Positions 3,273 through 42,817 of a stretch of 42,817 bases of DNA are shown piece after piece. How positions within the stretch are numbered: the stretch's first letter is position 1; every line of letters begins with the position of its first letter. Made by a program: the position numbers and the translations under genes. The DNA is taken from positions 1-42,817 of IMG/VR virus record IMGVR_UViG_3300020156_000048; one strand, written 5' to 3'. The notes beneath the pieces were generated by a model. It saw only the letters and a list, made by a program, of their open reading frames with translations, ran no database searches and was not told the origin of the DNA. This DNA is from a virus.

Positions 3273-4244
3273 TTACTTCGACGAATCCACGTCCGCAATC
3301 TTCGCGGACGAGGCAGCGTTACGGGCCTCAACGGTGAGTTCCGTAACGAGGTGCCACTTCTCCGAGTCGCCGGTCTTCGCCAGTTTCTCTTTCGTCATGC
3401 CACGGAGCTGGGCAAGCGCCCAGAAGTCCATGTCGAGAACGAGAACCGTGCGATCACGCGAGAAGCGCGACGGGACGATGCGATGCTCGCCAAAGTCCGA
3501 CACGTAGATGTCGGCCGCACCCACGATACGGGTGCCTTTGGCGGTCGTGCCCGCTTCCCGGTAAAGGGTCGCGATGCCCGCGAACGTCGAGATCTTCTTC
3601 TTCGCGCCCGGACCGACCAGAACGACAGTCGGGTTGCCACCCGCCGACCACGCGCTGGAGATCGCGGTCTTCAGGTGCTCTTCCGTCATCGAGCCGGTAA
3701 CGGTCGAATCGGTCGGAGCCGCCGTGTCGCCACTGGAGAAACCCGGAGTGGTTTGCGCCGTGCCACCACCCACCGACTGGTAGTTGGTGATCCACGCCTC
3801 CAGGCCGGCCATCTGGCGAGGAGTCGAGGCGTTACCAGCCGAGGAGCCCTGATTCTGGGTCGCGGCGAACTCGATGTCGCGCTTGATTTCCTTGCCGCGC
3901 TTCATCAGTTGGTACGCGATTTCCGAATCACGGCCAGCCTTGTCCACGGACTCTTGCGTGCCCGACACCTGGATCGTCTTCTTGAAGATCTGGGTGCGGT
4001 TGGACAGGCGAACGGTCGGAACAGCGGTGTTCACCGCCGAGTCGTCACCCTCGATGTTGCTGTTCTTCGCAGCAGCAGCGAGCGCGTCCGTTTGCCACTC
4101 GTGGTTGACGGCCTTGGCTTTCACCTTGGCAGCCATCGCAACGAACGGCGTCTCGGTCGGCGAGAGGTTGTAAATCATGTCGGTCAGGTCTTCCCTGTTA
4201 CCGACAGCTTGGTACGCCTGGAACGTCCCGGAAGGAGCGGTCAT
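3273..4244 (-). CDS. major capsid protein, DUF5309/SU10-type
   Basis: A 323-residue protein directly downstream of the scaffold gene, as expected for coat. The N-terminus has the recognisable NREDLTDMIYNLSPTETPF segment of the SU10/DUF5309 coat family, followed by KAVNHEWQTDAL and a VSGTQ.SVDKAGR segment. The C-terminal half has GAKKKISTFAG and DFGEHRIVPSR strands typical of an HK97-fold coat. It should build the icosahedral shell around the scaffold protein. Length fits the family. The high copy number expected for coat is consistent with the strong terminator directly after it. Confidence 0.9.
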   Translation of the reverse strand: MTAPSGTFQAYQAVGNREDLTDMIYNLSPTETPFVAMAAKVKAKAVNHEWQTDALAAAAKNSNIEGDDSAVNTAVPTVRLSNRTQIFKKTIQVSGTQESVDKAGRDSEIAYQLMKRGKEIKRDIEFAATQNQGSSAGNASTPRQMAGLEAWITNYQSVGGGTAQTTPGFSSGDTAAPTDSTVTGSMTEEHLKTAISSAWSAGGNPTVVLVGPGAKKKISTFAGIATLYREAGTTAKGTRIVGAADIYVSDFGEHRIVPSRFSRDRTVLVLDMDFWALAQLRGMTKEKLAKTGDSEKWHLVTELTVEARNAASSAKIADVDSSK

Positions 4245-4247
4245 GGC

Positions 4248-5273
4248 TTATTTCCCTTTTTGTTGTTTTTGTTTTGCAAGGTACAGCGCTACGAAGTCTT
4301 CCCCTCGCCCTGACTTCTTGAGCTTGGCGGAAAGTTCGCTCACTGCTTCTCTCGCGGGATTCGGCTTTTCAGCGCTTCCGGGTTTGATGACCTTGGGAAC
4401 CGCCACGACTCTCTTAGAAACCTCGGGCTTGGCTTGTTGAAGCTGCCTGTATTTCGCTGCGTCGTGGAAGACCTTAATCAACCGCGCATCTACTACGGGT
4501 GCTACTTCTTCGTTCTTGAACCCGTACTCTTTCGCTACGGTTCCAAGGACATTGTTGTAGAGGTCAACGTTCCACCCCGGAATCTCTGCCTCCAGGGTTT
4601 GCCTCGCCCTCTCGATTGCTTGTGACTGCGCCTGGCGCATGGCCTCTTGCTGTTGAGCCATCGCCGCACGCTGCTCCGACTCGATAGCCTGGAGCGTCTG
4701 GTTAAGCTGGATCTGCTTGAAGAAGATCCTTTGGGCTTCCGCAGGGTCTTCCATCGCCAGCTTGTTTAGGTCGATCTGCTGCAGCTCAGGGGCAACCGTC
4801 TTCAGGACGAGCTGCTTGTGCTGCTCAAGTCTTTGCAGGTATTCCTGTTGGGCCTGGAGCTGGGCCTGCTGCACCTTCTGGGCAACCTCGGCCTGCTCTG
4901 CTTTGACCTTCTGGATGTTGCGGTGGTAGTCCTGCTTGGCTAAATACCCTTCCCGCAACTCCTTCAGGCTGAGTTTCTTTGACTCTTTGCCTGAATCGGT
5001 CTTGTACTCGATCTCGAAAAGCGGCTCGTCTTCCGGAAGCTCGATCTGCGACTCTTCCGCAGGGGCTTCTTCGGCGGGCTCTGCCTGCTGCTCTACAGGA
5101 GCGCCTTCCTCGGTCCGTGGTACGGAGGTATTCTCCGGGTGCTCAGGGTCGTTGTCCGGGTTCTCCGATACCCACTTCGTGAGACTCGCAAGATCTGCTT
5201 CTTCTTGGTGGATAGGATGAGCCGGCGTTTGCGCTTGGGCCGGAGCCGGCGCAGCAGCTTGGGTCTGTTCCAT
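4248..5273 (-). CDS. capsid scaffold protein
   Basis: A 341-residue, highly charged protein. The first 100 residues are acidic and Pro/Glu-rich, residues about 115-230 are Gln/Ala/Glu-rich with strong coiled-coil character, and the C-terminus is basic (SAKLKKSGRGEDF to KQKQQKGK). This matches the composition of P22-type scaffolds, whose basic C-terminal helix binds coat. It sits immediately before the coat gene (4 bp apart). A good AAGGAAG ribosome site precedes ATG 5273. The assignment rests on position and composition; sequence identity of scaffolds is low in general. Confidence 0.82.
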   Translation of the reverse strand: MEQTQAAAPAPAQAQTPAHPIHQEEADLASLTKWVSENPDNDPEHPENTSVPRTEEGAPVEQQAEPAEEAPAEESQIELPEDEPLFEIEYKTDSGKESKKLSLKELREGYLAKQDYHRNIQKVKAEQAEVAQKVQQAQLQAQQEYLQRLEQHKQLVLKTVAPELQQIDLNKLAMEDPAEAQRIFFKQIQLNQTLQAIESEQRAAMAQQQEAMRQAQSQAIERARQTLEAEIPGWNVDLYNNVLGTVAKEYGFKNEEVAPVVDARLIKVFHDAAKYRQLQQAKPEVSKRVVAVPKVIKPGSAEKPNPAREAVSELSAKLKKSGRGEDFVALYLAKQKQQKGK

Positions 5274-9852: not shown

Positions 9853-9968
9853 GGAAAATGTGTGGGGGATCAAGGGACGGTTACGGGCGCCCTCCCCCTC
9901 CCCCTGTTTCTCGACCTACCCCCGGCCTCGGCCAGGAAAAGCATGCTTAAGGGAGCCCTCAAGCCCAT

Positions 9969-10027
9969 GTTGTGTCGCACAAATGCATTTAACGTAATGC
10001 ATATAGCTACCTGTGCGAACGCACAAC
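9969..10027. other. cluster of inverted repeats between TerS and TerL genes
   Basis: Three palindromes lie side by side: TTGTG-TCG-CACAA (9970-9982), ATGCATT-6nt-AATGCAT (9983-10002) and TGTGCG-AA-CGCACA (10012-10025). In addition GTTGTG at 9969 pairs with CACAAC ending at 10027, so the entire block can fold as one cruciform. No coding is seen here. A packaging recognition site, regulatory site or weak terminator are all possible. Confidence 0.6.
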
Positions 10028-10045
10028 TCTTGTACTATCAATAGC

Positions 10046-10537
10046 TTACGCTATTTCCTTCCCGCTTTCATCCACCGTAATGCCATGTTGCGGTGCGATT
10101 GTTGCATCCCCGCCACTGATATTGAGCGTAATTGAGAGCCGGCCCGCGTTGTCTGGCGGCTGGTCCTGCCCGTAGATCCTGCGGCATACGCGCTCCAGGT
10201 CCCACTGAGCTGCCTTGAGCTTCTCGCGTGCGAGGGACAGCGAGAGCGTGAGGCGGTCTCTTTCTTCTTTATCCGCCCCTGCAATCCTTTCCTGGATCTC
10301 CTCGAATCGGTCCTCAGCCTCTTCCTTACGCTTTACGGCCCTGATGACCTGGGCTGCTCTCCATTCTGTCTCGGCGTTTGCTAGGAGCCATTGGTTCAGG
10401 GCGGACCTTGTTACTCCTAGGTCTTTGGCTATGTCCTTTGTGCTTTCCTCGTTCAGCACGCGAGTAAGCACGTCTTTGGGGTCTACGCTCTTTAGCGGGT
10501 TCAGCGCTCCCTGTTTGCTCGCTAAGGCGTTGCTCAC
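10046..10537 (-). CDS. terminase small subunit-like DNA-binding protein
   Basis: A 163-residue protein. Residues about 18-55 contain a helix-turn-helix (VLNEESTKDIAKDLGVTRSA), the following residues form a long Glu/Lys/Arg coiled coil (about 60-125), and the C-terminus is a short strand-rich tail. This architecture matches small terminases, which recognise the packaging site and oligomerise. It precedes the large subunit by one small gene and an inverted-repeat block. GTG 10537 is used, with AAGGAG ten bases upstream. Confidence 0.72.
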   Translation of the reverse strand: MSNALASKQGALNPLKSVDPKDVLTRVLNEESTKDIAKDLGVTRSALNQWLLANAETEWRAAQVIRAVKRKEEAEDRFEEIQERIAGADKEERDRLTLSLSLAREKLKAAQWDLERVCRRIYGQDQPPDNAGRLSITLNISGGDATIAPQHGITVDESGKEIA

Positions 10538-10602
10538 GCTTGTCTAGCTCCTTTGCCACTAATCCGATGAACCACAGCATTCGTCCCAGGCGTCTTTTGA
10601 AT

Positions 10603-10836
10603 CTAGAGCTGGACGACTTCGTACTCTGTCTCAATCCATGCCTTCACGAAATGATCGGGCGCTGCTTTCAACCCCTTGGGGTCTATGAGCACCGAGGCCA
10701 ACGTGTTGCCTTGCTTATCCACAATCCTGAGCTGCCCGCCGTATTTGATTGTTGGGCCGCTTTGCACAATCGTTGCCCTGGACACGTCCATCTTGGGCTT
10801 CTTCAGCTCCTCGGACATGTAGATCAGCGTCTTCAC
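10603..10836 (-). CDS. small hypothetical protein before TerS
   Basis: A 77-residue protein starting at GTG 10836, whose GTGA overlaps the stop of the cysteine-rich gene upstream. It has a conserved-looking YGGQLRIVDKQGNTLASVLI strand pair. No family is recognised. It is part of the head of the late operon. Confidence 0.6.
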   Translation of the reverse strand: MKTLIYMSEELKKPKMDVSRATIVQSGPTIKYGGQLRIVDKQGNTLASVLIDPKGLKAAPDHFVKAWIETEYEVVQL

Positions 10837-11003
10837 TTGCCCTTCCACACAGGCACGAGCGGGATATCGCACCAGTCGCACATCACAGGCTCGAAATACT
10901 CAGTCCTGCACCTTGGGCATTGCAGCGTCTGCCTGCACTTCTGATCCCTCGGCAACTCCCCTCGCATCAGCCGGCAGTCCTGGTTGCAGTCGCACCTTTC
11001 CAT
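10833..11003 (-). CDS. cysteine-rich zinc-ribbon-like small protein
   Basis: A 56-residue ORF starting at ATG 11003 directly after the TAG of the glycosyltransferase gene and ending in a GTGA overlap with the next gene. It carries CDCNQDC, CPRC and CDWC clusters, enough ligands for one or two zinc ribbons. The tight spacing on both sides supports it as a real gene despite its size. Function unknown; nucleic-acid binding is plausible. Confidence 0.65.
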   Translation of the reverse strand: MERCDCNQDCRLMRGELPRDQKCRQTLQCPRCRTEYFEPVMCDWCDIPLVPVWKGK

Positions 11004-11711
11004 CTACCGCTCGCTCGGGATCGTGTACTGCATGCCCTTAGTAGCCGCCACGTAAGCCGCTCTCCACTCGTTGGCGTGGTCGCAGTCCTGGTAGTGCCTG
11101 AAGCTCGGCAGACCTAACGTGAAGTGAGCCAGCTTCGTGTCCAGCCCGCTCTCCTGCTCACCAATCAGCACATTCCAATTCTCTGGAAGCTCGCCTATCC
11201 GGCCCTTGTCCCTCAGCCACTCGAACCTATGCAGATGCTGCCCGCCGTGCTTTTGAATGTAGTCAGGCGTCAGACAGCGGTTCATGTAGTGCCCGCAATT
11301 CCAAACGATCACCGAGCTTTGGTTCTTGGCCGGATAGTCGAGGTTGTCGGCCTCCAGCTCTGTTCCTATGTATTTCCTCGGATGCTTGGTTCTGTAATCG
11401 TGCGGGACGACTTGAATCGCCTCCCAGCCGTTCCTGTGTTCCCACAGCTCGTTCAGATCCGCCCTCAGCAGCATGTCCGCGCCGTCGAGGAAGATCGCAA
11501 AGCCGTTGAATCCCTCCAGGTAAGGGACTAGGAATCTAGAAAGCGAGAACGCATTAGTCCCATCTGTACCAATTCCTAAGCCTTTGGCTACCTCTGGCGT
11601 TAGGAACGTGACGCTTACCGGGACTTTGCTTCGCTGGTCGATCAGGCTCTGCAGGAAGACATGCGCCCCCACAGCTTCTCGGTGATCCCAGCCGATGTAC
11701 AGGCGGATCAA
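11004..11711 (-). CDS. GT8-like glycosyltransferase at head of late operon
   Basis: A 235-residue protein starting MIRLYIGWDHRE, a beginning typical of GT8-like families that act on small hexose acceptors. FAIFLDGADMLL (72-82) supplies the metal/nucleotide-sugar acid pair (D76, D79). It is different in sequence from the glycosyltransferase at 496-1113. It is the first coding gene after the candidate late promoter and leader, so it should be expressed late. No membrane segment is visible. The acceptor could be a virion protein, host polysaccharide or other; none is indicated by the sequence. Confidence 0.75.
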   Translation of the reverse strand: MIRLYIGWDHREAVGAHVFLQSLIDQRSKVPVSVTFLTPEVAKGLGIGTDGTNAFSLSRFLVPYLEGFNGFAIFLDGADMLLRADLNELWEHRNGWEAIQVVPHDYRTKHPRKYIGTELEADNLDYPAKNQSSVIVWNCGHYMNRCLTPDYIQKHGGQHLHRFEWLRDKGRIGELPENWNVLIGEQESGLDTKLAHFTLGLPSFRHYQDCDHANEWRAAYVAATKGMQYTIPSER

Positions 11712-12142
11712 GCTTTCCTCTTGTTAGTTTCGGCCGCCCCGCGCTCAGTTATTTAGGAGGAGCGAGCTGCGATCGGCCGATGCCGGGGTTATGTGCGCCA
11801 CTGGCCGGCTGGGCTATGCGAATTAGGGCCTACTCAGCCCCGTACTAGCGCCTTTCGTTGCCTCGTTGTGTCCCGGTGAGGCCAGACCGGCATAGCCCTG
11901 GGGGAGCTAAATAATCGGCCCCACGAGTCAGGTAGACGCCGACGCTAGCGTTATTTGATAGGCGAGTCGGGTTTCTGCTGCAGGGCGCGAACCGTGAAAT
12001 AGGTCGGGCCGGGAAGCGCTAGAGCGCATCCTCTTACGAGACGCTAATGCGACTCGCTAGCCCTGATTCGTTTGGGAAAACTCAGCCCACCGAGGATCGG
12101 TAGGCATCTCAGCTTGCGCTGGTTCGGATTTTGTCTACTTAG
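11712..12142 (-). ncRNA. structured non-coding leader of late transcript (candidate)
   Basis: This 485-bp gap (11712-12196) has no plausible gene on either strand. It is rich in helices: GGGCTATGC (about 11811) pairs with GCATAGCCC (about 11890) over nine bases; GCTAG-CGCAT near 12019 pairs with ATGCG-CTAGC near 12047; GCCTC/GAGGC and CCGGT/ACCGG hairpins lie between. On the minus strand a 9-pair hairpin (12085-12105, 3-nt loop) is followed by TTTT (12077-12080), like the lambda tR' attenuator. The most economical reading is a late mRNA leader of the lambda pR'/6S-RNA type. A separate small RNA on the plus strand is an alternative. Confidence 0.5.
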
Positions 12143-12148
12143 ACCAAG

Positions 12149-12178
12149 CTTATAACACACAAGTTCTGGTGTGTGCAA
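12149..12178 (-). promoter_or_regulatory. candidate late promoter (pR'-like)
   Basis: On the minus strand an extended -10, TGTTATAAG (12157-12149), lies 18 bp after a TTGCAC -35-like hexamer (12178-12173), itself preceded by an A-run (12182-12187) resembling an UP element. It sits just downstream of the putative antiterminator gene and upstream of the late genes, the position of lambda pR'. The same DNA read on the plus strand contains a hairpin plus T-run, so a plus-strand terminator is the alternative. Confidence 0.5.
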
Positions 12179-12196
12179 GCCTTTTTTCGACTAAAT

Positions 12197-12604
12197 CTAG
12201 TACCCGAAGGCTGCAGCCAATTTGAATCTCGCCAGCTCCACCTGTTCTTGAAATTCAATCCACGTAAGACGCTTCCCGGTGAACTTGCGCATGGCTTTTA
12301 GAATTACAAATCTCGGGAGGCTCGGATAGCAGTAGTGGTACGTCACCGACCATTTCTGCACCCGCGTCAGCTTCATGATCTCGTCGTTGGTCTGCATGGC
12401 CTCCAGGACCGCTCTAGGACGCGCAGGAGCGATTTGCGGGGCCACAGGCTTATCCCAGCCCTCCACTTCGTAGTCCTCGCCGTGGGGCCTGTAATTGCCT
12501 TCAGCGGAGCCGCACTTTCCAAAGCTGTGACGGTCCCGGAAGTACCTGGCCCAGGCCCACAGGCGCTCGTCTACTTCTTCAGGAATTGGAAAGTCGCGTT
12601 TCAT
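12197..12604 (-). CDS. putative late antiterminator (Q-like)
   Basis: A 135-residue protein. ATG 12604 is chosen because its ATGA overlaps the preceding stop. It has a Trp-rich N-terminal helix (RLWAWARYFRDR), a disordered Pro-rich middle and a C-terminal helical part (VQKWSVTYHYCYPSLPRFV, then ELARFKLAAAF). General layout and position as the last gene of the early leftward operon, immediately before a candidate late promoter, match the lambda-82-type antitermination proteins. Sequence similarity to any one family is weak, so this call rests mainly on context. Confidence 0.5.
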   Translation of the reverse strand: MKRDFPIPEEVDERLWAWARYFRDRHSFGKCGSAEGNYRPHGEDYEVEGWDKPVAPQIAPARPRAVLEAMQTNDEIMKLTRVQKWSVTYHYCYPSLPRFVILKAMRKFTGKRLTWIEFQEQVELARFKLAAAFGY

Positions 12605-12879
12605 CTTTCGATATGCGGCCCGTTGCACTTCCAAGGCGTAACGCAGTTAGGGCATATGTGCTCAGAACCGACGCCCCCGACCTTCCCGGCAGTGCCAGGG
12701 GCATCTTTCATGCGCTGCTCGATGGCCGCCTTCATGGACCAAAGGACGCCCAGATACTCTTTGCGCATCTCGGCCATCTCCATTTCAAGCTGCTTTGCAA
12801 ACGCCACGGGGACAAACCCATGTCCTTTTGCATACCCTGTGGCCAAAGCTTGCGCATCGGTTCTAGGCGTATCGCTCAT
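12601..12879 (-). CDS. small phage protein (MSDTPRTDA type), unknown function
   Basis: A 92-residue protein beginning MSDTPRTDAQALA and continuing with PVAFAKQLEMEM, a start common among small phage proteins of unknown function in Pseudomonadota phages. The C-terminus has CPNC and a further Cys, a possible zinc ribbon. A GAGGAAT ribosome site precedes ATG 12879. Confidence 0.7.
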   Translation of the reverse strand: MSDTPRTDAQALATGYAKGHGFVPVAFAKQLEMEMAEMRKEYLGVLWSMKAAIEQRMKDAPGTAGKVGGVGSEHICPNCVTPWKCNGPHIER

Positions 12880-12893
12880 ATAATTCCTCCATC

Positions 12894-13094
12894 ATGCCAA
12901 ATCCCGAAACTGTCACCGTCTCCGCGCGGTACTTCGCAGCCCTCATGGAGGTCCGCAGGATCGCGGATGACCTCATAGCCGCCACAGAAGGCACGGACGA
13001 GTACGCCGAGCTCGAAGACACCCTGCAATGCGCTCTCGGATATCTGCTCATGCTTGAGGATGGGAAGGACGACCGGCAGAAAGAGGACGAGTAG
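12894..13094 (+). CDS. small acidic protein on opposite strand, possible leaderless
   Basis: A 66-residue acidic ORF lying on the plus strand inside the minus-strand replication operon. It fills a 216-bp gap between minus genes, has high GC at third positions and a normal protein-like composition, whereas the minus frame there is Ser/Arg-rich. A perfect TATAAT (12879-12884) lies ten bases before the ATG, so a transcript would have almost no leader; no Shine-Dalgarno and no good -35 are seen. Function unknown. Confidence 0.45.
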   Translation: MPNPETVTVSARYFAALMEVRRIADDLIAATEGTDEYAELEDTLQCALGYLLMLEDGKDDRQKEDE

Positions 13095-36205: not shown

Positions 36206-36562
36206 CTACTGGCTAGCCTTCCACTCCTTGAAGGCTCTGTGGGCCTTGTTTGGCTCGCCTACGTGGTCGTATCCCCTGCAGTGTGCTTGCTCGTGCTTCA
36301 GGTGCTCCGGGTCCTTCGTGGACAGGAACACCATGCACAGATCCCACTGGAAGTAGACCTTGGCGCACCCTACAACCGTTCCTGCGGCCTGCTCTGGAAT
36401 CCGCGAGCACCAGCGCTTAATTTGCTCGTCCGAGCCGTACACCACTTCTTCTCTGAGCTTCGGCCATCCATCAGGAGGAGGCGTGCTGTAGTCGATCTGG
36501 GTGTACGTCTGGGCCAATGCAGGCCACGAGAGCATGACAGCGAGATACGCTAGTTTCTTCAT
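36206..36562 (-). CDS. secreted HExxH-type metallopeptidase-like protein
   Basis: A 118-residue protein with a clear signal peptide (MKKLAYLAVMLSWPALAQ). HLKHEQAHCRGYDH contains HEQAH, a zincin-type HExxH with a third His in the right range. Two or more Cys could form disulphides in the periplasm. It lies between ejection proteins and tail-fibre genes and is thus late expressed. Peptidase activity is inferred from the motif only. Confidence 0.65.
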   Translation of the reverse strand: MKKLAYLAVMLSWPALAQTYTQIDYSTPPPDGWPKLREEVVYGSDEQIKRWCSRIPEQAAGTVVGCAKVYFQWDLCMVFLSTKDPEHLKHEQAHCRGYDHVGEPNKAHRAFKEWKASQ

Positions 36563-42541: not shown

Positions 42542-42817
42542 TACGCCACCCGCATCTGCATGGCGGTCGATTCCCGACCCTTGCGCTCGTTCTCGTTGAC
42601 CTGGTTCTTGACCTGCTGATACAGCGACTCCCAGACCTGAATCCGGTTATCGTTCTTCAGGAACGGAACGGCCGCACAGAGCGCCGCGTATAGGTACAGG
42701 TCCGGGTTGCGGGTGAAGAGCGCGTTCGACTCGTCCGCCAGAGCCTCAAGCTTCTTGTAGTACCAAAGCTCAATCGTGTAGGACGAGTCAGGCAGCGGCC
42801 CGAAGCGGATCTCGTCG
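42541..42817 (-). CDS. head-tail adaptor protein, C-terminal part (continues at window start)
   Basis: Second piece of the adaptor gene whose start is at 473. The stop TAG (42543-42541) shares a base with the GTG of the gp10-like gene. The C-terminus carries KNQVNENERKGRESTAM and a final RVA. Bases 42668-42817 duplicate 1-150. Joining 473-1 to 42667-42541 gives exactly 200 codons, which supports circularity. Confidence 0.85.
   Translation of the reverse strand, partial: DEIRFGPLPDSSYTIELWYYKKLEALADESNALFTRNPDLYLYAALCAAVPFLKNDNRIQVWESLYQQVKNQVNENERKGRESTAMQMRVA
42668..42817. repeat. terminal redundancy, right copy
   Basis: Copy of bases 1-150 with T at 42691 where the left copy has G. The variant is synonymous, which suggests a real population polymorphism rather than random error. 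Confidence 0.95.

Follow-up and report, generated by a model that had tools for sequence, protein, structure and literature searches.

The late control regions of phage 21 and lambda (PR', QBE, sigma-dependent pause and tR') are the closest described systems to the locus reported here. In both phages the Q protein binds an element between the -35 and -10 hexamers and needs a -10-like pause, as set out in an excerpt of PMC6606751. Their first late gene is a lysis gene. The QBE of phage 21 consists of direct repeats in the promoter spacer, and the Q21 antiterminators form Pfam family PF06530, the Q families being those listed in part of PMC7171158. In the Shiga-toxin phages, the RNA StxS arises between pR' and tR', according to an extract of PMC7873438.

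The window, meaning the whole 42,817-nt stretch of DNA analysed, comprises positions 1-42,817 of IMG/VR virus record IMGVR_UViG_3300020156_000048, and coordinates refer to it unless another record is named. It is the genome of a temperate podovirus-like phage of an uncharacterised group. By PHROG matches, the minus strand carries the portal, scaffold, major head protein and terminase genes together with those for replication (primosomal, primase, DnaB-like), and the plus strand encodes a repressor, an integrase and proteins resembling Erf and RecE; the minus-strand order runs from the replication genes through a Q-like gene to the late operon, and the layout as a whole resembles that of lambda and P22. 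The 20 bases that open the window occur again at 42668 and its closing 20 bases at 131. The ends (1-150 and 42668-42817) appear to be imperfect repeats of each other, some 150 nt long, and the window may therefore be a near-complete, end-redundant contig. A gap of 485 nt (11712-12196) separates a 145-aa minus-strand gene from the late operon. An earlier note on this DNA had called the gap non-coding, and no open reading frame of at least 60 aa overlaps it on either strand. The gap is probably a late-gene control region, made up of a Q-type promoter and an untranslated leader of about 430 nt following the Q-like gene. The product of the first late gene (11004-11711) is glycosyltransferase-like (phrog_28018, E 1.8e-30), and related proteins occur in phages of Pelagibacter, Synechococcus and Caulobacter; in this the gene differs from the lysis gene of lambda and phage 21. 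The features of the region and the copies of a hairpin motif discussed below are listed in Table 1.

Table 1 Features of the gap and its flanks in the window, and copies of the UGACA-hairpin in other records
Feature	Coordinates	Strand	Remarks
Q-like late antiterminator gene (putative), 145 aa, TTG start	12197-12634	-	Homologues in place, predicted fold
Late promoter: -35 TTGCAC (12178-12173), 18-nt spacer, extended -10 TATAAG (12154-12149)	12149-12178	-	Score 9.6
Plus-strand hairpin and T6, ending at 12187	12148-12187	+	Seen on the minus strand: A-tract and promoter spacer
Terminator-like hairpin, 9 bp, then TGAGTTTT	12085-12105	-	Candidate tR', roughly +37 to +67
Untranslated late leader, about 430 nt, up to gene 11004-11711	11712-12142	-	No ORF; start deduced from the promoter
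Conserved island CGCCGACG-N16-GGCGAGTCGGGYTTCTGCTG	11937-11980		Order and spacing shared with L002
Longest perfect helix, 9 bp, 11811-11819 with 11890-11898, around smaller hairpins	11811-11898		Not above shuffles
UGACA-hairpin copies	L040 2996-3029; L041 496-529; L045 1496-1529; L048 1495-1528		
UGACA-hairpin copies	L049 999-1033 and 1495-1528; L051 1495-1528 and others		
UGACA-hairpin copies	L050 1145-1178, 1259-1293, 1383-1416, 1495-1528, 2401-2436		

The position of the gap directly after a Q-like gene, as first proposed from the sequence alone, is supported by synteny and by a predicted fold closest to that of phage 21 Q. Homologues of the 145-aa protein occupy the same position in the records L002 (48% identity), L017 and L019 (about 36%). 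The protein had no Pfam or PHROG match at ordinary thresholds and no match among named phages, and none of the four members of alignment A1 matched the Pfam Q families PF06530, PF03589 and PF06323 at E values up to 10; in lacking a sequence-family match it differs from the phage 21 and lambda proteins. An AlphaFold2 model built on the four-member alignment (window, L002, L017, L019) reached a pLDDT of 75.7, with a low-confidence stretch at residues 36-62. Foldseek ranked phage 21 Q first for this model, but at E 3.1, which is not significant. In VIA-align, Q21 chains took ranks 1-4 (Z 8.2, 7.4, 7.2 and 7.2), spanning residues 11-145, a further Q21 chain stood at rank 8 (Z 6.2) and sigma region-4 domains scored 6.7 and lower; a Z near 8 for a helical model may reflect a common arrangement. 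The protein is likely, though not proven, to have a phage 21 Q-like fold, and its predicted fold and position suggest that it would act as an antiterminator. Record L034 (832-1377 and 1688-1711) has a different protein, with CxxC motifs, at the Q position, followed by a strong intrinsic terminator and then some 530 nt in which no gene is evident; the protein gave weak PHROG matches to 'anti-termination protein Q-like' (E 0.011 and 0.031).

An extended -10 promoter had also been proposed, and it was confirmed on the minus strand, with TG one base upstream of TATAAG. Its score under a sigma-70-like scheme of hexamer weights was level with ranks 8-10 of 136 strand-windows; a simple consensus scan found no promoter in the region because the -35 hexamer is weak. 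L002 has a promoter in the same place, likewise with an extended -10 (score 9.2), and the two promoter stretches align with a score of 40, a value that none of 1000 shuffles reached (mean 17). A Q homologue followed by a promoter-like site also occurs in L017 (9.0) and L019 (12.9), which are strongly alike in the promoter and initial transcribed stretch (0 of 1000 shuffles), and comparison of the window or L002 promoter with that of L017 or L019 gave no significant similarity (775, 79, 788 and 798 of 1000 shuffles). One alignment brings a CAG-containing stretch into register across all four promoter spacers, not significantly between the two phage pairs; it is a candidate counterpart of the direct repeats in the phage 21 QBE. 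Past the late promoter, L017 and L019 (about 5150-5210 in the latter) share a nearly identical block of about 50 nt in differing surroundings, a possible Q-utilisation or pause element.

A sigma-70-like promoter thus stands directly after Q and points toward the late genes, as in lambdoid late regions, and the position of Q relative to the late genes, the predicted Q21-like fold and the long untranslated leader extend the likeness to phage 21 and lambda. The arrangement had been likened to lambda pR'/qut/tR', and the comparison is largely right: the promoter after the Q-like gene is supported, and the terminator is a candidate. The hairpin plus TTTT claimed near the start of the transcript is present at 12105-12085, but at chance level, one terminator-like site having been found in 11000-13000 where 1.4 are expected; this differs from the early terminator of the known systems. 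No tR'-like terminator was seen near the promoter in L002, L017 or L019, and among the relatives examined only L034 has a strong terminator near the Q position. What the sequence shows directly is the order of the genes, a promoter that is conserved in one relative, and a non-coding leader. A Q binding site, a pause and an early stop would be expected from the predicted fold and the position of the gene. From its place just past the Q-like gene, the minus-strand promoter would drive the operon of terminase, head and tail genes, a phage-21-type Q would load on RNA polymerase paused at the late promoter, and the Q-loaded polymerase would read through early stops, so that the late genes would be expressed only with Q present.

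The leader had been described as much longer than needed, which does not hold, and as forming long perfect helices, which are not in excess. The stop codon of lambda Q (44509) and the start of S (45186) are 676 nt apart, compared with 485 nt here, and the three perfect helices of at least 8 bp, the longest of 9 bp, are no commoner than in shuffles (mean 1.7; 53 of 200 shuffles have as many). When G-U pairs are admitted, the late strand has 28 helices of at least 8 bp against a shuffle mean of 15.7 (0 of 200 shuffles as many), an excess of z 2.57, and none of 50 other strand-windows of the genome reaches z 2; the same measure gave an excess in L034 (z 2.31) and fewer helices than in shuffles in L002 (z -1.78). 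The minimum free energy of the window region was low on the late strand (z -2.87, 0 of 100) and on the plus strand (z -2.24, 3 of 100), and strand-windows elsewhere in the genome reach z -3.9 and -3.1; the relatives gave z of about 0 for L002, and -0.46 (late strand) and -2.69 (plus strand) for L034. The comparison of helices for covariation comes down to the pair of window and L002, since only L002 shares the conserved island. The late-strand helices of the window are not kept there, with 40 of 106 window-fold pairs retained and 45 of 100 controls as high. What is left of the suggested RNA structure is a mild late-strand excess of G-U-tolerant helices and a modestly low energy, and not perfect helices or conservation in L002; the case for structure in the leader is weak. 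Rfam 15 gave no match at the gathering score over the whole window, and the single match otherwise, at E 6.8, is not credible. The large phage RNAs GOLLD and ROOL resemble the region in size and tRNA context and in being non-coding RNA regions of phages; the window differs from them in having no Rfam match.

The island itself consists of the 20-nt GGCGAGTCGGGYTTCTGCTG (11961-11980) and the arm CGCCGACG lying 16 nt upstream of it in both the window and L002. A search of 15 records that allowed up to three mismatches found it in two, the window and L002, and an exact scan of IMG/VR returned one contig, that of L002. CCGAC (11939-11943) can pair with GTCGG (11966-11970) in a short hairpin; these pairs are invariant between window and L002 and so give no evidence for RNA. 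A match to the island region in L027 lies inside a 527-aa reading frame (9944-11527), and a 36-nt plasmid search gave matches at E 1 or worse; both were taken as chance. The whole leader had no match in named phages at E 1, only three matches to Streptomyces phage coding sequence appearing at E 6, and a search of the genome collection with the TerL and Q alignments gave 54 and 50 pattern stretches and no relatives.

Leaders of relatives contain RNA elements. A tRNA-Met lies in the L019 leader, and the late strand of the L002 leader (3932-3970) carries an abiF-like RNA (RF03085; 27.4 bits, below the Rfam cut-off of 37) with E 0.008 in 471 nt and E 4.8e-5 in its 12-kb record. In a prophage system of C. 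difficile, abiF RNA neutralises AbiF, as stated in a portion of PMC12373285. Xanthomonas phage SB3 (L039 2996-3034) has an abiF-like RNA just above the cut-off (37.1 bits) after an RNA polymerase gene. No Abi_2 gene (PF07751) was found in the eight records searched, including the 12-kb contig of L002, as would be expected of a decoy antitoxin. The window record, on the other hand, has no abiF RNA match at E values up to 10.

The L002 leader also contains, on the late strand at 3892-3925, the hairpin GUGACAGCUCGGAAAGACGAGCA, for which 14 loci were found at up to three mismatches. The motif, composed of UGACA, a 5-bp covarying stem and a GGAAAGAC-type loop, occurs in non-coding, mostly unannotated DNA of unrelated phages, namely Vibrio, Iodobacter, Erwinia, Gordonia, Bacillus, Stenotrophomonas, Microcystis and crAss-like phages. 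Of the two search sets, the first is not made up of independent records (13 of 16 are Vibrio phages, several near-identical), and the second matched 111 records, many from Vibrio, from which nine were chosen among the 60 matches listed; where records of the second set match in coding regions, by the 3' part of the query, the likeness is probably fortuitous. A model made from the 14 loci recovered weaker further copies, giving two in Piffle and a total of five in crAss-like phage cr272_1, where one copy directly follows a RAGATH-1 hammerhead ribozyme. In an alignment of 19 matches fitted to the structure, four of the five pairs change on both sides, in 14 cells (0 of 500 shuffles for cells), and with 14 sequences aligned without the structure the corresponding figures were two of five pairs and two cells (2 of 500 shuffles). 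The G-U pairs fit the strand that is read as late in L002. In Erwinia phage phiEt88 the hairpin lies between an annotated antitermination gene and a downstream tRNA-Phe, in a stretch that is mostly non-coding, and in L040, L042, L045, L049, L051 and L053 the motif is at most a few hundred bases from tRNAs; several copies lie inside or beside tRNA arrays. No Rfam 15 family matched the scanned loci at the gathering score, and among the papers listed by searches on tRNA-array or phage RNA motifs, none mentions the motif in its title or abstract. Models R1 and R2 of the hairpin reached at best 2.1 bits in window positions 11600-12300, and elsewhere in the window at best 12.5 bits at 36417-36447 (E 4.2).

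These elements bear on the alternative that survives best, namely that the leader contains minus-strand RNA modules with a function of their own (as decoy, antitoxin-like or regulatory RNA), released from the late transcript or from a terminated short one in the manner of StxS. The late-strand helix excess in the window and L034, the island common to the window and L002, the RNA modules in the same slot in L002 and L019, and the origin of StxS all point that way. Late-strand helices of L002 are, however, rarer than in shuffles, L002 has not retained the late-strand pairing of the window fold, and the window region matches neither abiF nor the hairpin motif, which makes the alternative rather doubtful. 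The likeness to StxS is that an RNA would come from a short terminated late transcript; StxS, compared here by its description in the same extract of PMC7873438, is a stable RNA with a target, and the window counterpart is hypothetical.

The gap had been suggested to encode a plus-strand small RNA, which would fill it and end at the hairpin and T6 independently of late transcription. The hairpin and T6 are indeed present at 12187 (-13.4 kcal/mol for 12130-12190), G exceeds C on the plus strand of the gap, opposite to the flanking minus-strand genes, and plus-strand window-fold pairs are retained in L002 slightly above controls, at 54 of 112 testable pairs in a global alignment that misplaced the island (3 of 100 controls as high) and 60 of 131 in an island-anchored one (4 of 100). 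Such an RNA is nevertheless improbable. The best plus-strand sigma-70-like promoter in the region scores 6.3, compared with a genome median of 6.1, and the bases of the hairpin and T6 also serve the late promoter: the hairpin covers its spacer, and the T6 read on the minus strand is a UP-element-like A-tract just upstream of the -35, partly kept in L002. At the same place L002 has a different, weaker hairpin with CTTTT, its leader is no more stable than shuffles and its hairpin and abiF-like elements are on the late strand; no Rfam family fits.

An equally unlikely origin of the leader is a decayed gene, with the island as a remnant of its reading frame. Translated in late frame 1, the island gives LQQKPDSP in the window and in L002 alike, and the three bases by which they differ over 24 nt are all third codon positions; three differences are few, however, the window frame runs into TAA and TAG immediately past the island, and the fixed spacing of the arm CGCCGACG is left unexplained. 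A packaging site (cos or pac) in the island or the whole gap, suggested by non-coding DNA with a CCGAC/GTCGG dyad upstream of the terminase genes, is very improbable, given that the glycosyltransferase-like gene and a further ORF intervene before the small terminase gene and that the island was not found in the L034, L017, L018 and L019 records (two of them fragments), whose large terminases are 70-79% identical.

On the late-control reading the element is of an ordinary kind, a late promoter of Q type followed by a long leader, and the phage group that carries it is unusual. The novel part is the idea that the leader of about 430 nt would be a slot for non-coding cargo in this group. Tentatively, and against the balance of probability, Q-controlled late leaders might serve as a slot for RNA cargo (tRNAs, antitoxin or decoy RNAs, the UGACA-hairpin) made with the late transcript and blunting host defences, and the window leader with its island might carry such modules; the step from relatives that carry RNA here to the window would be one of analogy. 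The region points to a late switch of the phage 21 kind in an uncharacterised group of phages, with a Q protein unrecognised by the Pfam and PHROGs models. If late leaders are RNA-cargo slots, they would be a place to look for RNA-based counter-defence.
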